64,000 nt of DNA from Oceanococcus sp. HetDA_MAG_MS8 (GCA_019192445.1 JAHCMK010000003.1:372001-436000); one strand, 5' to 3'. Counted from the stretch's first letter, positions 3,074-64,000 are shown. Notes: generated by a model not told the origin, from the sequence alone. Program-made: numbers and translations.

Positions 3074-4567
3074 TTAATGCGTTCTTTGACTGGCAACTGA
3101 GCCCAGACCAACACTCACTCCCTCTCCGTTTTGGCTCAGCAGAATTCCACTTGGGGGAATGTTCTTCATGAAGTCGTCGGCGCGTACCGCGCGACCGTAA
3201 AGATAGCCTTGGCCCAAGTCGCAAGCATGGTCGCTGAGAAAGCGGCTTTGTCCATCTTCTTCGATGCCCTCGGCCACCACGCTGAGGCCCAGAGTATGTG
3301 CCAGAACAATAATGGCACTGGTGAGGTCAGCATCGTGTTGGTTGTGTTCCAAATGCTGAATGAAACTGCGGTCAATTTTCAGCTTATCTACGGGATAGTT
3401 CAGTAGGTAAGACAAGCTGCAATAGCCGGTGCCGAAGTCATCGATGGCCACGTGAACGCCCATCATGCGTAGGGCCTTCAGGGTGTCGCGCGCATGGTCT
3501 GGATTTTCTAGCAGCAAGTTTTCCGTGATCTCGAGCTCGAGGGCGCTGGCCGGCAATGCCGTTTGCCGGAGTGCTTGCTGGACTTCAGCCACCATGTCCA
3601 TGTGCTGGAACTGTAGGGCTGACACGTTGACCGACATCACAAACTGCTCACCGAGCTTCGCACGCATTCGCCGCGCGTCTAGGCAGGCCTGATGCAGCAC
3701 CCAAGGGCCAAGCTTGGCCATTAGCCCACAAGACTCGGCGAGTGGAATGAAGACACTGGGCGGAACCTCTCCCAGCTGGGGGTTATGCCAGCGCAGTAAA
3801 GCTTCGCAGCCGCAGAGGCGGCCGGTTTTGAGATCGATCTGGGGCTGGTAGCTCAGCCACAGCTCTTCCTTAAGCAAAGCCTCGCGGAGGGCGGCTTCAA
3901 TATGGAGCGCATCCCGTTCGGCCAAGGCTGTTCCGGGCTGCGCTTGGGTTCGCCGACGCCAGGACTGCGCCTTGGATTGCTGCATGGCCAGAGCCGCTTG
4001 ATGCAGGAGCTCATCCACGGTGCGCGCCCTGGTCGGGTAGCTGCTAGCCCCGAGGCTGGCTCCAAGAATGATGGTTTCTCCGGCAACCTCAAAGGGTTGC
4101 TGCAGCACAAGGCTCAAGTCCTCCAAAGCCGCGGCCATGCCGGTGTCATGGTCTTGCGGAGTAGAGCGCAGAAGAATCGCAAAGTCATCTGAGCCCAAAC
4201 GCCCTACACAATGCGGCTGAGGATATTTCTGGAGCAGGCGCTGGGCAAGGCTGCAGAGCAGAGCATCGCCGCCCTGCTGCCCCAAGCTATTGTTGATGCG
4301 TTGAAAGCGGTCCAAGTCCAAAATCAGCAGGACGACCTCAGTCTGGTCCGGCTGATATTCGCTCACCGCTTGGCGAAGCTGGGCAAGAAAGTCTTGGCGA
4401 TTCGCCAGGCCTGTCAGCGGGTCCAGACTCGAACCGATGGGCTGCGGCTCAATGGCAGTGTGGTGACGCTTTTGGCTGCCCCGCTCAGGCAGCCTGCGGC
4501 GGCCGAAAAGCAGCCCCAAACCCATTCCACCGAGCATGGCGCTCAGCAACCAGCCTAAACCGGTCAT
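3074..4567 (-). CDS. membrane-anchored GGDEF-EAL c-di-GMP phosphodiesterase
   Basis: Predicted c-di-GMP hydrolase of 497 residues. One N-terminal membrane helix lies at residues 4-22 and carries no obvious sensor domain. The GGDEF domain (about 45-205) is degenerate, with GSDDF at 125-129, so cyclase activity is unlikely and it may only bind GTP. The EAL domain (about 220-480) keeps EALLR at 255-259, EITEN, DDFGTGY at 376-382, K397 and VAEGIE, all expected of an active phosphodiesterase. An in-frame ATG at 4657 would add 30 residues of unlikely sequence; I prefer the ATG at 4567, which begins just before the membrane helix. It lies downstream of the crotonase on the same strand and converges on the diguanylate cyclase. 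Confidence 0.88.
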   Translation of the reverse strand: MTGLGWLLSAMLGGMGLGLLFGRRRLPERGSQKRHHTAIEPQPIGSSLDPLTGLANRQDFLAQLRQAVSEYQPDQTEVVLLILDLDRFQRINNSLGQQGGDALLCSLAQRLLQKYPQPHCVGRLGSDDFAILLRSTPQDHDTGMAAALEDLSLVLQQPFEVAGETIILGASLGASSYPTRARTVDELLHQAALAMQQSKAQSWRRRTQAQPGTALAERDALHIEAALREALLKEELWLSYQPQIDLKTGRLCGCEALLRWHNPQLGEVPPSVFIPLAESCGLMAKLGPWVLHQACLDARRMRAKLGEQFVMSVNVSALQFQHMDMVAEVQQALRQTALPASALELEITENLLLENPDHARDTLKALRMMGVHVAIDDFGTGYCSLSYLLNYPVDKLKIDRSFIQHLEHNQHDADLTSAIIVLAHTLGLSVVAEGIEEDGQSRFLSDHACDLGQGYLYGRAVRADDFMKNIPPSGILLSQNGEGVSVGLGSVASQRTH

Positions 4568-4708
4568 GGTTGCTGTCTGCCCTTGGCTCTGTGCTCGCCC
4601 CGCGCATGAAAGAGCAGCGCCTTGAAGGATGCTGCGGCGATGCCGGGCTGGAGCCATGCTAAAAACGTCTGCATGGCTATGCCCAGCAAGCTTTGTTCCG
4701 CTAGCCCC

Positions 4709-5521
4709 TCACTTTAGAGTGAGTTGGGGGGGATCGAAGTCACCATGGCGCCCCTGGCCTTCTTTAAAGCGTGTTGCGCCTGCGAGGGTTTCTCCGGAAC
4801 CTAGCGTATTCAGGCCATACTCAAACTCTTGGCGCATGGCCTGTTCCTCGTTCAAGGACCATTGCTGGCGAGCACTGCGTAGGTCGCCACGTAAGCAGGT
4901 TTGGGGAAAGGCCATGAGCTGCTCAGCGAGCTCCATGGCCGTGTCGAAGCTCTGGCCTGCAGCGCAGCGACGGTTGACCAAGCCCATTTGGCTCGCCTCC
5001 TCTATGGCCACGGGGCGGCCCGTTAGGATCATGTCTAGGGCTCGACTTTGGCCAATCAGTCTGGGTAGGCGAACGCTACCACCGTCGATGAGTGGTACCC
5101 CAAAGCGGCGGCAGAACACCCCAAAGATGGCGCTGTCATCGGCAACGCGTAGGTCACACCAGCAGGCCAGCTCCAAACCACCGGCAACGCAATAACCGCT
5201 GATGGCCGCGATGACTGGCTTAGCGCATTGCATCCGGGTCGGCCCCATGGGGCCGGGGCCATCACGGTCAATTCTGTTGGCCAATTCAGGCTTGCCGCTG
5301 GCAACGGCTTTGAGATCCGCCCCTGCACAAAAGTGACCTCCGGCCCCATGCAGGATGGCGACATCCAGCTCAGGGTCTTGGTCGAAATCAGTAAATGCGT
5401 CCAGGAGGGCGTCAGCTGTAGGTCGATTGACGCAGTTACGCACTTGCGGTCGTTGAATACGAACTTCGAGAACCCGACCGTGTCGGACGCAAACGACGAG
5501 AGGGTCGGCTGGCTTGGTCAT
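4709..5521 (-). CDS. crotonase (enoyl-CoA hydratase/isomerase) family protein
   Basis: Soluble CoA-ester enzyme of 270 residues, the usual length for crotonases. The CoA and oxyanion-hole motif HFCAGADLK is at about 63-71, and the second oxyanion segment SGYCVAGGLELAC at 108-120. E117 matches the first catalytic Glu of enoyl-CoA hydratase. The position of the second catalytic Glu is C137 (FGVFCRRFGVPLIDGG), so classical hydratase chemistry is doubtful. This variant forms a recognisable subgroup with the FCRRxGVPLIDGG signature, and its true reaction is unknown to me. It is divergent from the AidB-like acyl-CoA dehydrogenase across 50 bases, suggesting shared control and an acyl-CoA breakdown role. 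Confidence 0.85.
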   Translation of the reverse strand: MTKPADPLVVCVRHGRVLEVRIQRPQVRNCVNRPTADALLDAFTDFDQDPELDVAILHGAGGHFCAGADLKAVASGKPELANRIDRDGPGPMGPTRMQCAKPVIAAISGYCVAGGLELACWCDLRVADDSAIFGVFCRRFGVPLIDGGSVRLPRLIGQSRALDMILTGRPVAIEEASQMGLVNRRCAAGQSFDTAMELAEQLMAFPQTCLRGDLRSARQQWSLNEEQAMRQEFEYGLNTLGSGETLAGATRFKEGQGRHGDFDPPQLTLK

Positions 5522-10565: not shown

Positions 10566-10605
10566 GGGCTAACCGTCGGGAAGCAAAGCTTTGATGACGC
10601 CTTCT

Positions 10606-10890
10606 TTAAGCGTCACTACGCTCGGTGATTTCCAGCAGGTGGTAGCCAAACTGAGTTTTGATGGGCCCGTGGACGGTGTGCAGGGCATCTCTGAATACCA
10701 CTTCATCGAATTCGGGCACCATCATGCCCTGACGAAACTGGCCCAAATCGCCGCCGCTTTTTCCTGAGGGGCAGGTGGAGTGCTGCTGGGCGACTGCTGC
10801 GAAGTCCGCACCGTTGGCAATTTCATCTTTGAGTTGTTGGCACTGTTCTTCGGAGGCCACCAAAATGTGGCGTGCACTGGCTGAAGGCAT
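10606..10890 (-). CDS. ppiC: parvulin-type peptidyl-prolyl isomerase
   Basis: Cytoplasmic proline isomerase of 94 residues, almost exactly the size of E. coli PpiC and made only of the rotamase domain. Signature segments are ARHILVASEE, the NGADFAAVAQQHSTCPSGKSGGDLG core, FRQGMMVPEFD, and TQFGYHLLEI at the end. An upstream in-frame ATG at 10917 would add MFSFLRAKK; I prefer the ATG at 10890 because it matches the family's N-terminus. It may share a transcript with slyX. Confidence 0.9.
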   Translation of the reverse strand: MPSASARHILVASEEQCQQLKDEIANGADFAAVAQQHSTCPSGKSGGDLGQFRQGMMVPEFDEVVFRDALHTVHGPIKTQFGYHLLEITERSDA

Positions 10891-11059
10891 TTTTTTCGCT
10901 CTGAGGAAAGAAAACATGAGGGAATGCTAGCAGTCTGGCCGTTTGCGGTCAGTAAGCGCGTCGCCCTCCACACAGGCGAGCGTCATGATTGGCCCTTGGC
11001 GCGCTATGCATGATGGACATTGCACGGAGGTCGATAGCCTGAGAGCGGGTGGACTTCCG

Positions 11060-11065
11060 TATAAT
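11060..11065 (+). promoter_or_regulatory. consensus -10 box immediately before an ATG
   Basis: TATAAT lies at 11060-11065 in the context CCGTATAATGC, and the ATG of the next gene is at 11072. Transcription usually starts about seven bases after such a box, so the mRNA could begin at or beside the start codon. The same CCGTATAATGC context recurs before argG (43831-43841). No good -35 box is visible at 17 bases. Confidence 0.5.
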
Positions 11066-11071
11066 GCTGCA

Positions 11072-12424
11072 ATGCAACACACACTGACGAAACCATGGAT
11101 GGTTGTGCTGCTGGGGCTGCTGAGCAGCCAGGCCGCCGCCGTGGACCTCAAGCTCGAAGGCCAGCTCAACCAGTACTCCGGCCTCAGCCCGGTGTTGCGG
11201 CCTTCTGCGGCATTGACTCTAGAAGCTCGGCCTTATGCCAGGGAGCGCGGAGGAACCACCTATAACTTGGACGTGGTTTTGTTCGGCCGCTACGGCGAGG
11301 GCGTTGAAGAAGGCCGTAAACACGTGGATATACGTGAGTTCGGATACATCTTTGCCAACCGCCATTTGGAGTGGCGCATGGGCATCGGGCGGGCTTTTTG
11401 GGGCGTCACCGAGTCTGTGCATCTGGTCGACATCATCAACCAGGACGATGCTCTGGAAGACATTGATGGCGAGGACAAGCTCGGCCAGCCTTGGTTGGCC
11501 GCGAGCACGCGGTTGGGTCCGGGGAATTTGGGGGTGTTCGTCTTACCGCGCTTTCGCGAGCGTGAGTTCTCGCCGGTGTTTCGGGAGCTGGCGCCTTTCG
11601 CGATTCGCGAGGAGGAACGTCGTTTCGAGTCCAGCCGCGAACAACAGCATGTTGATTACGCCCTGCGTTATGGGCAGCGCTGGGGCGGACTTGAGGCGCG
11701 ACTGTCCTATTTCCAGGGCACGAACCGGGAACCCGTGCTGCAGCCCTGCGCGGCCCAAGGCAGCGGCCGTCCTGGCACCGAGAATCAAGCGAACTGTGAC
11801 CTCAGTGAAGCTTTTGCTCCCCCCGACGTTGATCCATTGACCGCTGTGCTCATCAATACCGCAGCCTTATTCGACCTAGGTCCTTCCCAAGACGAGCTGG
11901 AAGAGGAGTTCATTGAAGAGGCCCTGGCCGATGTGGTGTTGATCCCGCGCTATGATCAAATTCAGCAAGTCGGCCTAGAGGCGCAGTGGGTTCGGGGCGC
12001 CGCCGCATGGAAGTTGGAAGGGCGCTGGCGCGAACAGCGCTCTGAAGACCAAATCGCCTTTGCAGGCGGGGTGGAATACAGCTTGGGGGTGTTTTGGGAT
12101 GGGCTGTTGGATATTGGCCTCCTCGCCGAATATCTGTACGACGATCGCGACCCAGACGTATTTTTCAACCTGTTTGACGACGACATATTCGTCGGCACGC
12201 GGGTTCTAGGAAATGACATTGCCGGCACTCAGATACTCGGCGGAGTGATAGTTGACCGCAATGATGGCTCGTGGTTTTGGTCCTTAGAAGCCAGTCGCCG
12301 TCTCAACGGGCGTTTGCTGGCGACCATCGAAACTCGCGGCTTCCAGCCGCGTGGTGAGGCCGCAGTCACCGACTTCTTGGATGATCTCGATAGTCTGCGC
12401 CTGCAGCTAGAGCTGTTTTTTTAG
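11072..12424 (+). CDS. predicted outer-membrane beta-barrel protein of unknown family
   Basis: I do not recognise this 450-residue protein. It opens with a signal peptide: a Lys at 7, a hydrophobic core VVLLGLLSS, and cleavage after AAA near residue 22. The mature part alternates short hydrophobic and polar stretches typical of barrel strands (FGYIFANRHLEWRMGIGRAFWG) and is acidic. The C-terminus LQLELFF ends in aromatic Phe, the usual outer-membrane insertion signal. The ATG at 11072 fits the signal peptide; a longer frame from 10943 starts with non-signal sequence and is unlikely. No transporter partner is adjacent. Confidence 0.75.
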   Translation: MQHTLTKPWMVVLLGLLSSQAAAVDLKLEGQLNQYSGLSPVLRPSAALTLEARPYARERGGTTYNLDVVLFGRYGEGVEEGRKHVDIREFGYIFANRHLEWRMGIGRAFWGVTESVHLVDIINQDDALEDIDGEDKLGQPWLAASTRLGPGNLGVFVLPRFREREFSPVFRELAPFAIREEERRFESSREQQHVDYALRYGQRWGGLEARLSYFQGTNREPVLQPCAAQGSGRPGTENQANCDLSEAFAPPDVDPLTAVLINTAALFDLGPSQDELEEEFIEEALADVVLIPRYDQIQQVGLEAQWVRGAAAWKLEGRWREQRSEDQIAFAGGVEYSLGVFWDGLLDIGLLAEYLYDDRDPDVFFNLFDDDIFVGTRVLGNDIAGTQILGGVIVDRNDGSWFWSLEASRRLNGRLLATIETRGFQPRGEAAVTDFLDDLDSLRLQLELFF

Positions 12425-51094: not shown

Positions 51095-51766
51095 TCAGGC
51101 CGATGATGTGTTGCCATCCCGCGTTGGTGCTGCACACGCAGCTCTGCGCCGGTGGCGCTGATCCCAGGCATTTTTTGCTGCTACCAGCAAAGCCAATCCC
51201 AGGAATGCGCCCGGGGGAAGGCTCATCAGCAGCCAGCCTTGGCTGCTGAACTCGATGGTCCAATCACTGGCAGCGGGGCCGAAGAGTAGCTCCGCTCCGC
51301 CAAAGAGTTGGCCGCGGCCCAGCACTTCGCGCAATGCGCCCAGGGCGATCAATGCGGCGCTAAAGCCGGTGCCCATGGCAAGGCCGTCGACGGCAGCGAC
51401 TAGCGGTGGGTTGCGCGCGGCGAAAGCTTCCGCCCGTCCAATAATGGCGCAGTTGGTCACAATCAAAGGGATAAATATGCCCAGCTTGAGATACAAGGCG
51501 TGTAGCCAAGCATTCATCAGCATGTCCAGGCTGCTCACGATGGCGGCAATAATCAGCACATAGACGGGGATGCGCACATTGGGTGCAATATGTTTGCGCA
51601 GCAGTGACACGCTGAGGTTAGAGATAACCAGCGTGGCAATGGTGGCTAGGCCCAAGCCCAGGCCGTTAATCACGGTATTGCTCACCGCCAGCAAAGGGCA
51701 CAGCCCCAATAGCTGCACGAGTGCCGGGTTACTACTCCATAGTCCGCGACGCCAGACCTCATTCAT
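51095..51766 (-). CDS. rnfE: Rnf complex subunit E
   Basis: Membrane subunit (223 residues, six helices) of the sodium-pumping or proton-pumping ferredoxin:NAD oxidoreductase. It has the RnfA/E core [37 protein letters not shown] and [14 protein letters not shown]. The gene overlaps the rnfG stop by eight bases and is the last subunit of the cluster. The C-terminal tail [13 protein letters not shown] is slightly long. Confidence 0.95.
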
Positions 51767-52409
51767 CGCTGGGCTCCATAGCGGGCGCTTCGGTCATGGC
51801 CTGTGCTTGGTTTTGAATGTATACCAGCGCGGCCTGCATGGTGTTCACGACGGCCCGTGTGGTGATGGTTGCGCCGCTAAGTTGATCGAAAACGCCACCA
51901 TCTCTGCGCAGGCGCCAATCTTTGGCGGCGATGGAGCCTAGCCCCTGGTGCAGAAACTGCTGCTGCCAATTGGAGCGTTGGGCTTCGATGCCATCGCCTA
52001 GCCCCGGCGTTTCCTTGTGCGCTACGACGCGCATCCCCAAGACTTCACTGTGGGGGCTAAGGGCAAGCAAGAAATCAATAGACCCGGAATAGCCCTCGGT
52101 CGCGCGCAGCGGCAGGATGAACGCCACGACTTCGCCGTGTTTACGGGCTCGCCAGATGATGTCTGGGCCGGGGGCTGTCCATTCTTCGGGCAGTGTCCAG
52201 CGAACACGATCCGCGAGCAGGTCATTATCAAAACTGTTGGCTGGCAGCATGCTCAGCAGTGCAGCGCGTTTGGCGGCTATTTGCGCTGCCGCAATTTGCG
52301 GCTGGGTGCATTGATGCACACTGGCGAGCAGTAGCACGGCTGCCAGGCCAAAGCCCAGCAAATTTGCGCCCGCCCCGCGCATGCTCGCAAGCCAGCTGCG
52401 TTCACTCAT
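51759..52409 (-). CDS. rnfG: Rnf complex subunit G
   Basis: Membrane-anchored flavoprotein of 216 residues. One N-terminal helix ([19 protein letters not shown]) precedes the periplasmic FMN domain, with the covalent FMN motif SGATITTR near residue 178. [10 protein letters not shown] is also typical. It starts four bases before the rnfD stop (ATGA) and ends within rnfE. Confidence 0.95.
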
Positions 52410-53398
52410 GATCTGTGCTCCTGCCCGTATACCCGAGGCACCGTGTGAGCATCAATGACTGGCACCAGCATGTTAAGTAGCATTACCGCAAAGGCGAAGC
52501 CATCGGGGTAATCGCCAAAGCTGCGTATCACCCAGGTGAGCAGGCCAATGCCAAAGCCATAGATAAGCCGTCCGCGAGGCGTTGTTGAGGCAGAAACGGG
52601 GTCGGTAGCGATAAAGATTGCGCCAAATATGGTCGCGCCATGCAGCAGGTGGAAGCCTGCGGAGGCAAAACGATCCGCATCGACGGCCTGGGCAATGAGT
52701 GCGGGTAGAGCCACCCCCGCGAGGACCGCAATGGGTATACGCCATTGGATCAGGCCGCGGCGCCACAGCCATACGCCGCCTAGCCCCCAGGCGACGGCTA
52801 GGAGCCAGGCAAAATCGGTGCTCAGGTCGGCCGTGACTTCGGTAACGGTGAGCTGCGCACGCAGGCCGTTGCGCATCGCGTCTAGTGGGGTGGCGCCAGT
52901 CCAAGCATCAACTTCGTGCAACTCTCCCAGACCCAGCCAATAGGCCCAGGGTAGGTTCCAGGCTGTGGTGGTGTCGGCTGGCCACAGCGCCAGGCTGGCA
53001 GGCAGGCTGACCAGCACCATCACGTAGCCGACCATGGCCGGATTGAAAGGGTTTTGGCCTAAGCCGCCAAACAGCTGTTTGCCCACGGCAGTGGCCAGGC
53101 TGCCTGCCAGCAGGGCTTGCCACCAGGGTAGCCAAGGCGGCAAGCACAGCCCGAGTAGCACGCCGGTGAGGAGGGCGGAATAGTCTCCCAATTGCGAGCT
53201 CAGATCTCGCCCACGCAGCCTCAGGATGCCGGCTTCAGCGCCTAATGCGCCTATACAGCAGTACACCAGCTGAAAGAGTATCCCGGGCCCCTGCAGTGCG
53301 ACGCTGACGAGTACACCGGGTAGCAAGGCGAGGATCACAGCCAGCATGACCTGCGGGACTCGGCGGCGCGGTCGTATCCAGGGGCCGGCGATACGCAT
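52406..53398 (-). CDS. rnfD: Rnf complex subunit D
   Basis: Membrane subunit of 330 residues with about nine helices. The covalent FMN threonine lies in WTGATPLDAMR, and LFGGLGQNPFNPAMVGYV and IFIATDPVSASTTPRGR are conserved. It starts on the last base of the rnfC stop (TGATG) and overlaps rnfG by four bases. Confidence 0.95.
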   Translation of the reverse strand: MRIAGPWIRPRRRVPQVMLAVILALLPGVLVSVALQGPGILFQLVYCCIGALGAEAGILRLRGRDLSSQLGDYSALLTGVLLGLCLPPWLPWWQALLAGSLATAVGKQLFGGLGQNPFNPAMVGYVMVLVSLPASLALWPADTTTAWNLPWAYWLGLGELHEVDAWTGATPLDAMRNGLRAQLTVTEVTADLSTDFAWLLAVAWGLGGVWLWRRGLIQWRIPIAVLAGVALPALIAQAVDADRFASAGFHLLHGATIFGAIFIATDPVSASTTPRGRLIYGFGIGLLTWVIRSFGDYPDGFAFAVMLLNMLVPVIDAHTVPRVYGQEHRS

Positions 53399-55035
53399 CA
53401 GTTGTCGCTACCTGAGTTGTGCTCGCGTTGTCGCCGGGCGCGTTCTTGAGCAGCCTTAACGGCTGGCGGTAAGGCTTGCTTGGCCTTTGCTTGTTGCGCC
53501 CGCGCTTTGGCGAGGGCGGCGGCAACGGCTGCAGAAGTTGCATCAGCGGGCTTGGCCGCCGCGGTCTGCTCGGCCTGGAGCAGGGCTGCTTGCTTGCGTT
53601 GGCGGGCGGCCTCTCGCTCGGCGTGTTCGCGTTGCAGGCGCTTTTCACGCGCGGCGTAACGCGCTTTGGCGTGCTCGGCTTTGCGGCGTTCCACAGCGGC
53701 GTTTGCCAGCTCTGCCTTGGCATAGCGGTAGTACTGCACCAAAGGAATCTCGCTGGGGCACACCACCGCACAGGCGCCACACTCAATGCAGGCATCTAAA
53801 TGTAATTTGGCTGCCGCTTGAAACTCGCGGGCCTGGCTGTGCCAATACAGCTGCTGCGGCAGTAGCCCGGCCGGGCAAACCTCCACACAGTCGCCACAGC
53901 GAATACATGCCCGGCTGGCCGCTGCGGGTTGGATATCGCTCGGTGGGCCCACGAGCAGGCAGTTAAACCCTTTGCTCACCGGCACATCTTTATCGGGTAA
54001 TACCACGCCCATCATGGCCCCACCCATGAGCAAGCGTGGGGCTGGGTCTGGGTGGGTCAGGCCACCGCTGGCTGCAATGAGTTCACTGATGGGAGTGCCC
54101 AGCCGCACCCGCCAATTTCTGGGCTGGGCAATGGCTGTTCCAGTGACGGTGACAATGCGTTCCGTGAGTGGCTGTGACTCTTCCAAGGCTTGCTTCACCG
54201 CCACGGCTGTAGCGACGTTAAACATGGCCAGCCCTAAATCCAGTGGCAGTCCGTCCAGAGGTACCTCCAGACCAGTGAGGCTTTGAATGAGCTGGCGCTC
54301 TCCTCCCTGGGGGTAACGGCTGGGTACTTGGACTAGCTGAATGCGGGCATCGGCGCTGCGCTTCAGCGCTTGATTCACACTATCGATGGCGGCCTGATGA
54401 TGGTCTTCAATGGCAATGCTCAGCCGCTGGGCTCCGCTCGCTGCCAGCAACCATTGGCCACCGCGAATAATGGCAGCGGCATCTTCTAACATGCTGGCCC
54501 CATCACAGGAGATGTAGGGTTCGCATTCGGCGCCATTGAGAATGATGTGCTCAAGCGTGGGCCGATCTACGCCCGCACGGAGCTTTGTTGCACTGGGGAA
54601 ACTGGCTCCCCCGAGACCGACGATGCCTGCCGCGGCAATGCGTTCAATGATGGTTTCAGCGGCGGTAGCGTCAGGGTCGGTATAGCAAGGCCCCAAAGCC
54701 TCGTCGCGGGCTTGGTCTTGCTGATCAGTTTCCAATAGGATGCAGTCAACACTACGGCCTTGATCAAGGTCGCGGGATTCAATGGCGCGCACCCAGCCCG
54801 AGCTGCTGGCATGGACCGCCACGCTCGCAGAAGTGCTGGCTTTGGCGATGAGGTCTCCGCGCAGTACATGCTGCCCTGGCTGCACACAGGGGACAGCGGG
54901 CGGACCTTGATGCTGATGCAGCGGAATCCACAAATGTCTGGGCAGGGGCGCCGCGCAGGTAGCAGCTTGCTCGCCGTAGAGCTTGTTGCCGGCCAGAGCG
55001 AGGCCGCCGCGAAAATCGTGCTGCGCGTTAAGCAT
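53398..55035 (-). CDS. rnfC: Rnf complex subunit C
   Basis: Peripheral iron-sulfur and NADH-binding subunit of 545 residues. The NADH/FMN domain includes GAGxASF-like GLGGASFPSATKL and ILNGAECEPYISCD. Two 4Fe-4S clusters are CIRCGDCVEVCP and CIECGACAVVCP. After about residue 430 the chain becomes a long Ala/Arg/Gln/Lys-rich coiled tail, as in other gammaproteobacterial RnfC but poor in conserved sequence. I chose the ATG at 55035 (TAATG with the rnfB stop) because it gives the FRGG start near residue 7; the frame is open to 55068. Confidence 0.95.
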   Translation of the reverse strand: MLNAQHDFRGGLALAGNKLYGEQAATCAAPLPRHLWIPLHQHQGPPAVPCVQPGQHVLRGDLIAKASTSASVAVHASSSGWVRAIESRDLDQGRSVDCILLETDQQDQARDEALGPCYTDPDATAAETIIERIAAAGIVGLGGASFPSATKLRAGVDRPTLEHIILNGAECEPYISCDGASMLEDAAAIIRGGQWLLAASGAQRLSIAIEDHHQAAIDSVNQALKRSADARIQLVQVPSRYPQGGERQLIQSLTGLEVPLDGLPLDLGLAMFNVATAVAVKQALEESQPLTERIVTVTGTAIAQPRNWRVRLGTPISELIAASGGLTHPDPAPRLLMGGAMMGVVLPDKDVPVSKGFNCLLVGPPSDIQPAAASRACIRCGDCVEVCPAGLLPQQLYWHSQAREFQAAAKLHLDACIECGACAVVCPSEIPLVQYYRYAKAELANAAVERRKAEHAKARYAAREKRLQREHAEREAARQRKQAALLQAEQTAAAKPADATSAAVAAALAKARAQQAKAKQALPPAVKAAQERARRQREHNSGSDN

Positions 55036-55583
55036 TAGGAGGCCGAGTTCTGGGTGGCTTCCGGCCATGCCCAGCGTGGCTGAGCTGTGGGCAGTTCATG
55101 CAGGTCTATACAGTCCACAGGGCATGGGGGGATGCACAACTCACAGCCCGTGCATTCCTCGGTGATCACCGTATGCATCAGCTTGTTCGCCCCGACGATG
55201 GCATCGACGGGGCAGGCCTGAATGCACAGCGTGCAGCCGATGCACTCGTCTTCGCGAATATAGGCCACCACGGGTGATGTTGGCGCGCTACCAAACTCCG
55301 GGTTGAGTGGCTTGGGTTCGCGACCTAACAGCTCTGCAAGAGCAATGACGCCCTCCTCGCCACCCGGCGGGCATTGGTTGATGTCGGCTTCGCCTGCTGC
55401 GATGGCTTCGGCATAAGGGCGGCAGCCTGGGTAAGCGCATTGACCGCACTGTGTTTGCGGCAACAAGGCATCAATGCTGTCGACCAGGGGGTTGCTGTCG
55501 GCCCGCAGCTTATTTGCAGCCCAGCCCAGCGCTAAACCCAGCGCCAAGCATAGGCCGGCAAAAGCCATCACTGCCGACAGCAT
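55035..55583 (-). CDS. rnfB: Rnf complex subunit B
   Basis: Iron-sulfur subunit of 182 residues. An N-terminal membrane helix is followed by the cluster motif [22 protein letters not shown] and two ferredoxin motifs, [18 protein letters not shown] and [15 protein letters not shown]. It passes electrons to RnfC. The start overlaps the rnfA stop by one base. Confidence 0.96.
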
Positions 55584-56158
55584 CAGGCCAACCCTGCAAA
55601 GCCTAAAAAGGCCAGTGACATGATTCCAGCTGTGATCAAGGCAATGGGCGCGCCTTGGAAAGGAGCAGGGATGTTGGCTGCAGCGAGTCTCTCGCGCAGG
55701 CTAGAAAACACCACCAGCACCAGCGAGAAGCCCACGGCGGCTCCAAAGCCGTAGAACACGGCTTCGCTAAAACTCAATTCTTGACGGGCTTGGAGTAAGG
55801 CCACACCCAGCACGGCGCAGTTTGAGGTGATCAGCGGCAAGTAAATGCCCAGCACCTCGTACAACAAGGGGCTGGTTTTTCGGACCCACATTTCGGTGAG
55901 CTGCACGGAGGCGGCAATCACCACAATGAAACTCAAGGTGCGCAAGTATTCCAGGCCCAGGGGGGCCAGCATGAAGTGCTCGATCAGCCAGCTGCTTGCT
56001 GATGCGAGCGTGAGGACGAAGGTGGTGGCTAAGGCCATACCTAAAGAGCTGCTGCGCTTGTTGGACACGCCCATAAACGGACACAGGCCCAAGAACTGCA
56101 CCAACACAAAGTTGTTCACCAGCACGGTGCCCATAAACAGCAGCCACAATTCGGTCAT
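55583..56158 (-). CDS. rnfA: Rnf complex subunit A
   Basis: Membrane subunit of 191 residues with six helices. The sequence [20 protein letters not shown] is diagnostic, as is [14 protein letters not shown]. First gene of the rnfABCDGE block, 45 bases after metG on the same strand. No nth gene follows the cluster in the window and no rnfH is seen. Confidence 0.96.
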
Positions 56159-60269: not shown

Positions 60270-60319
60270 GATCCGTGTGATCCAGCCAGCGTAATTGCTG
60301 GCGAATCGAGGGACATTGG

Positions 60320-60353
60320 GCCCGTGGTGCGGAAACGCACCGCGGGCTTTTCT
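60320..60353 (+). terminator. intrinsic terminator with GAAA tetraloop
   Basis: GCCCGTGGTGCG pairs over twelve bases (one G-U) with CGCACCGCGGGC across a GAAA tetraloop, and TTTTCT follows at once. It lies 50 bases after the RRM gene. Confidence 0.92.
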
Positions 60354-60582: not shown

Positions 60583-60778
60583 GGCGTGCTCACAGGCCGC
60601 TATTTTCTTCAAGAAGCTAGAAATTAGATGAACTTGTTGGCGCTAAGCCTCACTGAAGCGCAGTTCCTAGGCTGAGCGTCGTTGCTTACGCTTGGCCGCG
60701 TCGCCAGCGCGGGCTTGCGCAGCCAGACTGACGCCTGCTTCCATGGCAGCCGTTGGAATCGACAGGAGGAGACCGTCG

Positions 60779-63700
60779 ATGGCCGCGTCAATCATGGCTT
60801 GGGGCCGGTTGCAGGATGCAGCCGACGAAGCACAACATCGCCGGGCTGCCCAGGCCGATCCGGGTGCTTATCACGGCACTATTGCTGCTGCGGAGCTGCA
60901 TTGGTACGCCAACGGCTGTTGGCTGAGCTACGATCCCGAGCAACAGGCTTGGAGCGGCTTTGCTGCGACCGATGGGCGCACTCCCCATGCCCTGCCAGAA
61001 GCAGACTGGAGACCCTGGCATACAGCATTTGACGACTCCGATGCTCCCTTTTACCGCTGGTTTATGGGCGCGCAAACGAATGCCTGCTTCAACGAAGTGG
61101 ATCGTCATGTACTGCAAGGGCGCGGCGCCGCAACCGCCATCATTTTCGAAGGTGATCGTTGGGATCCCTCACTCAACGAGGGCAAAGGTGGTCCGGTCCA
61201 TCAGCAGCACATCAGCTACAGGCAGCTGCTGCGCGAAACCATTATCCGTGCGCGCGTTCTTCACAACTTGGGTTTAGGGCGCGGTGACCGAATCGCGCTG
61301 AATCTGCCCAATATTCCAGAGCAGATTTACTACACCGAGGCCGCCAAACGACTGGGCATCATTTACACCCCGGTGTTTGGAGGCTTCTCAGCCAAAACAC
61401 TCTCGGATCGTATCTACGATGCCGGTGCCAAGGTAGTGATTACCGCGGACGGTGGTTATCGCAATGCCGAGGTCGTCCCCTTTAAAGAGGCCTACACCGA
61501 TCCGGCCTTAGACAACTTTATCCCTTTGGCGACGGGGCTTAAGGTCTTGCAAGAGGTGCTGGAAGGCACCGAGCTTTCGGCCGAGGTTTGTAGTCGTATC
61601 CAGGCGCGTGTCGCAGCCGCATTACGCGGTGAAATTACGCTAGAGCGCAGCGACATTATGCGTGAGTTAGGGCAGGTCCTGGCTGCCGAATCGCAACTCT
61701 CGCCTACAGTACTGGCGGCTGTACGCACGCAGGTCGCAAGCAGCTTGGCCGCTGCCGAGCATATCGTGCAAACCGTTGTTGTGGTTCGCTACACCGGCCA
61801 GGATGTGGTGGTGCAGGATCGCGATCAATGGTCCGCTGAACTGGTCCAGCAGGCCACCCAGCAGGCCTTTGCCGAAGTGGGCATTCCAGAACTGGCCGAT
61901 GCCGCCGCCGCACACTTGGAGGGGCTGGATGATCGGGACTACTGGCAGGCGCTCAACGCTATCCACCCGGCACTGCCGCTGCCCGCAGATACGCCGCTGT
62001 TCATCATTTACACCTCAGGCTCTACCGGCAAGCCTAAAGGCGTGGTGCACACCCACGGCGGTTGGTTAGCTGGCATCAGCCACACCATGCGTATGGTCTT
62101 CGCAGCGGGGCCGGAGGATCGGCTCTATGTGATTGCTGACCCCGGCTGGATAACCGGACAGTCGTATCTCATCGCCGCACCACTGGCCTTGGGCATGTCG
62201 ACAGTGGTCGCGGAGGGCTCGCCCTTGTTTCCGCACGCAGGGCGTTTTGCCTCCATCATTCAGAGGCATGAGGTCACCATTTTTAAGGCTGGCTCCACCT
62301 TCCTCAAAGCCGTGATGACTGACCCGGCCAGTACAGCCGATCTACAAAGCTACTCCATGGCGGCATTGAAGGTGGCAACCTTCTGCGCCGAGCCGGTATC
62401 ACCGGCCGTGCAGCAATTTGCCATGCAGCAGGTCTGCGAGCGTTACATCAATTCGTACTGGGCCACCGAACATGGAGGCATGGTGTTTTCCTGTCCTTGG
62501 GGAGATCACAAGAATCTTGCCCCGGATGCCAAGACCTGGGCTTTACCCTGGATCGATGCCCAAGTGCGAATCGCCGAGGAGCAAGATGAGCAAGGGCAGG
62601 CCACACAGTGGCGCCTAGCCGAAGAGGGTGAAAAGGGTGAACTAGTCATCCAGCAGCCCTATCCCTATCTGGCACGCACCATTTGGGGCGATGCGCAGAA
62701 CCTGCACAGTGAGCAGTGGAAAGGTGATTTGGAGCGCTTCAGCCAAGTCTATTTTCAACGCTGGTCTGGCGGATGGGCCTACACCCAGGGTGATTACGCG
62801 CGCCGACATGCCGATGGTGGCTTTACCCTGCATGGGCGCTCCGATGATGTGATTAATGTCTCCGGCCACCGCCTAGGCACCGAAGAGATCGAAGGCGCTA
62901 TCCTACGTGACAAGGTGCTCCGTGCAGACTCGCCCGTGGGTAATGCCGTAGTCGTCGGAGCGCCCCATGCCGAGAAGGGCGAAACGCCCGTCGCCTTTCT
63001 GATCCCCGCGCCTGGCGCACGGATCAGCGATGATGATCTGGACCGGCTCAAGGGTTTGGTGCGGGACGAAAAAGGCGTGACCGCAGTGCCCGGGGACTTT
63101 CTGGTGGTGTCGGGTTTTCCCGAAACCCGTTCCGGCAAGTACATGCGCCGCACCCTGCGCGGCATTTTGCTGGATCAACCCCTGGGCGATTTATCCACCT
63201 TGCGCAACCCGGAAGTGGTGGAGGAAATTCGCGAGGTGGTGGAGGCTTGGCGCAATCTCGGACAGCTGGGCGAGGTGCGCAATATTGTGCAGACCTACCG
63301 CTATTTGCGCTGGGAGACGCATAGCCTCAGTGCCGACACCAGTGTCGCTCTGCTTTGGGTCAATCACCCGCCCGTGAACGCGCTCAATGAACGGGCTCTG
63401 GATGAGCTGAACACGGTTCTGCAGCATATTCGCGACAAGCCAGACATCCGGGGGTTGGTGATATCTGGCGCCGGCCGGGCCTTTGTGGCCGGGGCCGATG
63501 TCAAAGAATTGCTCGACGTGGGCGAGGCCGGCGATATGGATAGCGCTCGCACCCCTCCAAATGCTGCGCAAACAGCCTTTGCTGCCTTGGAGAATCTGCC
63601 GATTCCGGTGCTGGCGGCTGTGAATGGCCCTGCACTGGGCGGTGGCTGTGAGTTAGCCCTGGCCTGCGCCTACTTGGTGGCGGATGGTCATGCTCAATTT

Positions 63701-64000
63701 GGGCAACCCGAAATTAACCTGAACCTATTGCCTGGCTACGGTGGCACCCAGCGCCTGCCGCGGCGTTTGTACGCTCGGCGTGGCGAGGAGGGGCTGCGCG
63801 ATGCTGCGCAAGTCATTCTCAGCGGGCGCTCTATGACCGCAGCCGAGGCCAAGCAGCTGGGTCTGGTGGATGAAGTGGTAGGCGATCAGGCCCGTAGTCC
63901 AGTGGCGGTGGCCGTGCAACGGCTGCGCGAATACCTGGCTGGTGCTGGCCCCTTGGTCGCCGCCATGGAACAACGGCATGCCTATCTGGAACAGCGGGAG
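60779..64000 (+). CDS. pcs: propionyl-CoA synthase (trifunctional; partial)
   Basis: First 1074 residues of a giant fusion enzyme that turns 3-hydroxypropionate, ATP, CoA and NADPH into propionyl-CoA. The acyl-CoA synthetase domain (about 80-820) has YTSGSTGKPKG at 411-421, SYWATEHGG and catalytic K787 in RSGKYMRR. A crotonase domain (from about 860) retains both Glu residues, E958 in GGGCELALAC and E978 in GQPEINL, and the oxyanion motif FVAGADVKEL. The N-terminal region (WYANGCWLSYDPE, FYRWFMGAQTNACFNEVDRH, IYTPVFGGFSAKTLSDRI) is that of Chloroflexus and Erythrobacter Pcs. The third, reductase domain should lie past the edge. AGGAGG precedes the ATG by nine bases. Confidence 0.95.
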   Translation, partial: MAASIMAWGRLQDAADEAQHRRAAQADPGAYHGTIAAAELHWYANGCWLSYDPEQQAWSGFAATDGRTPHALPEADWRPWHTAFDDSDAPFYRWFMGAQTNACFNEVDRHVLQGRGAATAIIFEGDRWDPSLNEGKGGPVHQQHISYRQLLRETIIRARVLHNLGLGRGDRIALNLPNIPEQIYYTEAAKRLGIIYTPVFGGFSAKTLSDRIYDAGAKVVITADGGYRNAEVVPFKEAYTDPALDNFIPLATGLKVLQEVLEGTELSAEVCSRIQARVAAALRGEITLERSDIMRELGQVLAAESQLSPTVLAAVRTQVASSLAAAEHIVQTVVVVRYTGQDVVVQDRDQWSAELVQQATQQAFAEVGIPELADAAAAHLEGLDDRDYWQALNAIHPALPLPADTPLFIIYTSGSTGKPKGVVHTHGGWLAGISHTMRMVFAAGPEDRLYVIADPGWITGQSYLIAAPLALGMSTVVAEGSPLFPHAGRFASIIQRHEVTIFKAGSTFLKAVMTDPASTADLQSYSMAALKVATFCAEPVSPAVQQFAMQQVCERYINSYWATEHGGMVFSCPWGDHKNLAPDAKTWALPWIDAQVRIAEEQDEQGQATQWRLAEEGEKGELVIQQPYPYLARTIWGDAQNLHSEQWKGDLERFSQVYFQRWSGGWAYTQGDYARRHADGGFTLHGRSDDVINVSGHRLGTEEIEGAILRDKVLRADSPVGNAVVVGAPHAEKGETPVAFLIPAPGARISDDDLDRLKGLVRDEKGVTAVPGDFLVVSGFPETRSGKYMRRTLRGILLDQPLGDLSTLRNPEVVEEIREVVEAWRNLGQLGEVRNIVQTYRYLRWETHSLSADTSVALLWVNHPPVNALNERALDELNTVLQHIRDKPDIRGLVISGAGRAFVAGADVKELLDVGEAGDMDSARTPPNAAQTAFAALENLPIPVLAAVNGPALGGGCELALACAYLVADGHAQFGQPEINLNLLPGYGGTQRLPRRLYARRGEEGLRDAAQVILSGRSMTAAEAKQLGLVDEVVGDQARSPVAVAVQRLREYLAGAGPLVAAMEQRHAYLEQRE

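Follow-up and report, generated by a model that had tools for sequence, protein, structure and literature searches.

The question raised by this locus is whether a long open frame at the right edge of the window, a stretch of 64,000 nucleotides from Oceanococcus sp. HetDA_MAG_MS8 (G000:C3:372001-436000), encodes a propionyl-CoA synthase (Pcs) and, if so, what such an enzyme would be used for in this organism. The original prediction had named the frame as the Pcs of the 3-hydroxypropionate pathway in a gammaproteobacterium, with partial or mixotrophic use of that pathway rather than a full bi-cycle. The genome comprises 3.53 Mb on 20 contigs, with its completeness rated at 100% and its contamination at 0.02%. 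The frame is open from an ATG at 60779 to the window edge, and the next stretch was added to finish it, which places its complete end at C3:438214 (L009:6214). The plus-strand segment 60779..64000 is the 5′ part of pcs, as judged from the open frame, the match to a solved structure and the Pcs tree, and encodes residues 1-1074 of a complete product of 1,811 aa. A Shine-Dalgarno sequence, AGGAGG, can be read directly 9 nt 5′ of the ATG (60764..60769, plus strand), and a pattern scan found a terminator-like hairpin of 14 pairs, a consensus match only, 3′ of the upstream RNA-binding protein gene (60318..60349, plus strand; L009 318-349). No sigma-70-like promoter was found. The gene appears to be the start of its own transcription unit.

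The acyl-CoA synthetase (3-hydroxypropionate--CoA ligase) domain occupies residues 1-822 (60779..63244, plus strand), with the Pfam models AMP-binding and AMP-binding_C covering about 75-822 and the motif alignment in agreement. It is followed by the enoyl-CoA hydratase (3-hydroxypropionyl-CoA dehydratase) domain at residues ~845-1060 (63311..63958, plus strand), identified by ECH_1, one of two overlapping ECH models, and by alignment. The expected reductase domain is found 3′ of the hydratase and beyond the window, where residues ~1190-1790 form an enoyl-reductase/crotonyl-CoA reductase-like domain that zinc-dehydrogenase models match weakly and of which residues ~1190-1509 match crotonyl-CoA carboxylase/reductase in a sequence search of solved structures. 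The motifs of all three domains align with those of Erythrobacter NAP1 and Chloroflexus islandicus, and the catalytic residues claimed for the synthetase and the hydratase are all kept in this alignment: YTSGSTGKPKG, the SGK lysine K787 (63137-63139, plus strand) and the two candidate catalytic hydratase glutamates E958 (63650) and E978 (63710), both on the plus strand.

The top solved-structure match by sequence search is 6eqo, the Pcs of Erythrobacter NAP1 (1,850 aa, the same length as the NAP1 protein on L060), which aligns with residues 18-1790 at 1,881 bits, far above chance level. By contrast with this full-length alignment, the synthetases of the organism's own genome match Pcs over single domains only, with 27-44% identity; an ordinary acyl-CoA synthetase fusion is ruled out by these two observations together with the placement in the Pcs tree. 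By analogy with the characterised enzyme, the protein would convert 3-hydroxypropionate to propionyl-CoA with ATP and NADPH. Among the matches listed, no NCBIfam model for Pcs stood above its cut-off, and routine annotation would probably call the protein an AMP-binding protein, the label carried by the Natrinema Pcs record.

The next gene 3′ of pcs is mcr, the malonyl-CoA reductase gene that had been proposed as a search target, and its start overlaps the pcs stop (ATGA). Its 1,209-aa product is a Chloroflexus-type malonyl-CoA reductase (Mcr) made of two fused SDR halves, seen as two adh_short stretches in Pfam, with residues 8-1209 matching the full-length solved Mcr structures 8hi4 (1,073 bits) and 8hjw. 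Against NCBIfam, only generic SDR subfamilies are above cut-off for the fused Mcr. With no specific NCBIfam model above its cut-off for either protein, genes of this kind probably go under-annotated in public databases of genomes. The gene 3′ of mcr lies on the other strand and, from the appearance of its sequence, encodes phosphoribosylglycinamide formyltransferase. This opposite-strand neighbour and the terminator-like hairpin on the 5′ side delimit a unit of pcs and mcr alone.

The same two genes stand out in relatives: when the flanks of 78 named Pcs loci were compared, no protein families other than those of pcs and mcr proved widely common, several further clusters in this comparison appearing to be other-frame shadows of the two. 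No further gene is widely conserved beside them in these flanks, and in proteobacterial relatives mcr is usually directly 3′ of pcs. A PpsR-like operator (TGT-N12-ACA) was considered as a link to light control and dropped, since none is present 5′ of pcs; the motif occurs in two of 28 upstream regions of relatives, which is near the chance rate. Elsewhere in the window, a gene set resembling the Rnf electron-transport complex adjoins metG on the minus strand (51095-56158, recognised by eye from translations only) and could supply or balance reductant.

The phylogenetic placement was examined with relatives found by a pattern scan with one genome per species, the best 80 of the 245 found being used. 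The protein falls inside Pcs, as anticipated, in a clade of 14 rows with support 100 on a tree that holds no ordinary synthetase. Its clade mates are Chromatocurvus, NOR5-3 and other Halieaceae, Woeseiaceae, two Myxococcota and one Longimicrobiales MAG, and the clade is separate from those of Chloroflexus, Erythrobacter/Sphingomonadales, Burkholderiales and the haloarchaea. Identity to the clade mates from Halieaceae, Woeseiaceae, Myxococcota and Gemmatimonadota is 67-72%, the nearest protein among the best 80 of 245 relatives being that of an uncultured proteobacterium (L024, 72%). The Mcr tree agrees with this grouping (12 rows, support 100), though its internal order differs somewhat; both are quick trees made without bootstrap, and the long branches of L080, L072 and L051 make their deep order unsafe. 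The assignment to a gammaproteobacterium is consistent with these results: on the tree, the Pcs of a genome from another class of the same phylum (G779) adjoins Blastomonas and Sphingomonas, as would suit a host from Pseudomonadota outside the Alphaproteobacteria.

Of the 85 genomes examined from its order, this is the only one with a Pcs; the sister species, another member of the genus, is among the 84 without it. Across the class, only three genomes in a sample of 369 have one. The sister species also lacks Photo_RC (Puf) proteins, as does one genome of the same family. Because of this distribution, the pcs-mcr cassette was probably acquired horizontally.

More distant Pcs-like proteins show a variety of arrangements. 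Nine haloarchaeal loci (L015, L016, L055, L059, L063, L069, L074, L076, L084) encode full-length Pcs proteins of about 50% identity, several of them on megaplasmids (L016 and L015 are from plasmids of Natrinema zhouii and Natribaculum breve), and mcr was not detected in the stretches examined; in Natrinema, pcs is followed after a few genes by those for methylmalonyl-CoA mutase, a B12-binding protein and MeaB. The Bacillota L043 and L085 (Paenibacillaceae) and L080 (Sulfobacillus) have Pcs with no mcr detected in the flank examined. A gammaproteobacterial MAG, SW_17 (L051), has a Pcs that groups with Paenibacillaceae and a very divergent mcr match (33%) upstream of pcs, and its genome encodes PrpB with no mutase and no Puf. 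Two genomes of the same class as the host (L012 in G221, L013 in G104) encode divergent Pcs-like proteins (38% and 30% identity) whose motifs are changed, L012 having YSSGLTGKPKPIVH for instance, and no mcr match was seen in the stretch examined; these proteins possibly have a different or decayed activity.

What the enzyme pair could do depends on the rest of the genome. RuBisCO is absent from it, which rules out the Calvin cycle. Methylmalonyl-CoA mutase (PF01642) is likewise absent, with 8 of 14 control genomes positive, and this rules out the HP/HB cycle; the sister species and two genomes of the same family have a long IcmF-like mutase. The genome also has no HpcH/HpaI-type lyase (malyl-CoA, methylmalyl-CoA or citramalyl-CoA; PF03328), for which 10 of 14 controls were positive. 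A complete 3-hydroxypropionate bi-cycle that supports autotrophy, of the Chloroflexus type, could be suspected from the presence of both key enzymes, Mcr and Pcs, yet the mutase and the lyase family are both missing and the only candidate for a mesaconyl-CoA transferase is a single class III CoA-transferase scoring 30 bits against the TIGR04253 cut-off of 725. Unless non-homologous replacements exist, the bi-cycle is refuted by this gene content, and we give it next to no probability. The suggestion of partial or mixotrophic use thus stands, on account of the missing lyase, mutase and RuBisCO and of the photosynthetic reaction centre described below.

The absence of the mutase also changes where propionyl-CoA can go. 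By the usual route it would be cut off from succinyl-CoA, so that the methylcitrate cycle is the most likely sink. The genome has the set of the AcnD/PrpF variant, with PrpB, PrpC, AcnD and PrpF all above their NCBIfam cut-offs. PrpB and PrpC are encoded side by side (L106:9524-10411 and 10567-11718), and the genes for AcnD, with an intact frame of 864 aa, and PrpF lie together on the minus strand away from prpBC (L129:6447-9041 and 4330-5520). An aconitase-like gene and isocitrate lyase are present as well, and with the latter acetate can probably be assimilated without the pcs-mcr route. The methylcitrate genes have no linkage to pcs-mcr and are also found in the sister species, which lacks Pcs; they were therefore not acquired for the purpose of the cassette.

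The host is also equipped for phototrophy. A family search found two Photo_RC proteins, PufL and PufM, with pufC next to their genes and bchY, a phytoene-desaturase-family gene, bchX, bchC, bchI, bchD and bchP nearby. The genes of a type II reaction centre are thus accompanied by those for bacteriochlorophyll synthesis in a photosynthesis gene cluster (pufL/M/C and bchC/X/Y/I/D/P; L105:1479-4320 and L104:1470-18977, at about 61-84 kb of contig G000:C9). Physical linkage of this cluster to pcs-mcr is ruled out, as the two sit on different contigs (C9 and C3) and the stretches examined in relatives gave no PufL, PufM, BchY or CrtI match. From its gene content, the host is best read as a photoheterotroph that would co-assimilate CO2.

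Taken from gene identity, operon layout, gene presence and absence and phylogenetic placement, all of which were observed, the interpretation that we favour, and consider somewhat better than an even bet, is that pcs-mcr is a horizontally acquired two-gene operon for a reductive 3-hydroxypropionate route that would feed the methylcitrate cycle. The enzyme activities in this model are carried over from 6eqo and the solved Mcr structures, and the direction of flux and the coupling to light are likewise predicted. A putative acetyl-CoA carboxylase would convert acetyl-CoA to malonyl-CoA at the cost of one bicarbonate and one ATP, and Mcr would reduce malonyl-CoA to 3-hydroxypropionate with 2 NADPH. 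Pcs would then ligate CoA (ATP to AMP), dehydrate the product to acryloyl-CoA inside its chamber and reduce this with NADPH to propionyl-CoA. In the characterised enzymes, the two steps from malonyl-CoA to propionyl-CoA cost 3 NADPH and one ATP cleaved to AMP. Propionyl-CoA would most likely enter the methylcitrate cycle (PrpC, AcnD, PrpF, aconitase, PrpB) and leave it as pyruvate and succinate, the succinate presumably returning to oxaloacetate via the ordinary citric acid cycle. The net result would be the conversion of acetyl-CoA and CO2 to pyruvate in air, with ATP and reductant spared by the bacteriochlorophyll reaction centre. Such a route would complement the glyoxylate shunt and allow a photoheterotroph to save organic carbon.

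Two other uses of the cassette have to be weighed against this model. Pcs alone can convert 3-hydroxypropionate to propionyl-CoA, and haloarchaea and some Bacillota have it without a neighbouring mcr; the main role could therefore be that of Pcs in the use of external 3-hydroxypropionate, acrylate-derived compounds or three-carbon waste, with Mcr secondary. We regard this as unlikely, as mcr is directly 3′ of pcs in this genome and in almost every close relative, and the overlap of the two genes here looks like translational coupling, an arrangement that points to malonyl-CoA as the starting compound. It is also conceivable, and in our view quite improbable, that pcs-mcr acts as a redox or storage valve which consumes 3 NADPH per acetyl-CoA and channels the propionyl-CoA into odd-chain fatty acids or copolymer polyhydroxyalkanoates. 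The high demand for reductant and the frequent phototrophy of Pcs-bearing organisms (Puf in 20 of 24 genomes) would fit an electron sink, but a complete methylcitrate set is at hand to consume the propionyl-CoA.

The link from the cassette to the methylcitrate cycle can be viewed in a wider set of genomes. Among these 24 Pcs-bearing genomes, 13 have a classical mutase without PrpB, nine have PrpB without a classical mutase, two have both and none has neither. PrpB was scored above the TIGR02317 cut-off and a classical mutase as a frame of ~690-900 aa or its contig-split pieces; long IcmF-like frames were left out, and a 559-aa frame in G842 was counted as not classical. Mutase and PrpB were opposite in about six of seven independent pairs on the Pcs tree (sign test, median p 0.03), an exploratory figure for a set with many MAGs that was scored by the author after seeing the data. 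Since it is common among bacteria at large for just one of the two propionate pathways to be present, the pattern is no evidence for a rule specific to Pcs. The pcs-mcr cassette does occur with either sink.

The comparison with known systems follows the same line. The Pcs of Erythrobacter NAP1 shares with the present protein its succession of three fused domains, the catalytic motifs and the pcs-mcr gene order, but it is only about 50% identical, belongs to another Pcs clade and comes from a genome with methylmalonyl-CoA mutase and no PrpB above cut-off, the reverse of the genome studied here. Chromatocurvus halotolerans and gamma proteobacterium NOR5-3 (Halieaceae) and Woeseiaceae MAGs share its Pcs and Mcr clades, have mcr directly 3′ of pcs where the contig allows and mostly carry pufLM. 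The tested Halieaceae nevertheless have methylmalonyl-CoA mutase and no PrpB above cut-off, whereas three of four Woeseiaceae resemble the present genome in having PrpB and no classical mutase but differ from it by an IcmF-like mutase. The Chloroflexus bi-cycle has the Mcr and Pcs steps in common with the present genome, which lacks its mutase and malyl-CoA lyase, and pcs and mcr lie apart in Chloroflexus (Caur_0613 and Caur_2614; PMC3150298).

The enzyme pair as such is already known, also from phototrophic gammaproteobacteria. Both enzymes are reported from Alpha- and Gammaproteobacteria in a study that also proposes an HP/HB cycle for Luminiphilus (PMC9802188). Another study reports key enzymes of the bi-cycle for Porphyrobacter and Erythrobacter NAP1, those of Porphyrobacter ULC335 being upregulated in daytime, which was read as possible co-assimilation of CO2 (PMC10674011). 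Kentron symbionts are a mirror case, having most of the bi-cycle but neither Mcr nor Pcs (PMC6593406). For purple bacteria, a 3-hydroxypropionate module and a methylcitrate module are both named as options in a 2021 review (PMC8307300); no report of Pcs-Mcr and the methylcitrate cycle combined in an organism was found in the open-licence literature. A further parallel is the synthetic, oxygen-tolerant Lcm module, in which acetyl-CoA is also carboxylated and passes through 3-hydroxypropionate to pyruvate, although by an engineered mutase to lactyl-CoA instead of the natural cycle via propionyl-CoA and 2-methylcitrate proposed here (PMC11599936). The same paper describes the known natural oxygen-tolerant routes that start from acetyl-CoA and incorporate CO2 as long and leading via C4 compounds, and the word methylcitrate is absent from its main text (PMC11599936). 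What is new is the host lineage and, as far as gene content can indicate it, the putative wiring to the methylcitrate cycle.

Outside Chloroflexus, Pcs and Mcr are usually treated as an incomplete bi-cycle. The point that goes beyond the ordinary is the combination of Pcs-Mcr with a reaction centre and the methylcitrate cycle, and without methylmalonyl-CoA mutase: a well-assembled genome of this content suggests that another downstream step is possible. Whether this amounts to a natural, oxygen-tolerant and carbon-gaining route from acetyl-CoA to pyruvate (carboxylase, Mcr, Pcs, methylcitrate cycle) that would do without vitamin B12 chemistry, with a cassette that would plug into either the mutase or the methylcitrate sink in different phototrophs, we judge to be evenly balanced. 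The organism offers a testable case of light-assisted CO2 co-assimilation via 2-methylcitrate, and the occurrence of both the cassette and the photosynthesis genes where the tested relatives have neither bears on how such metabolism spreads.
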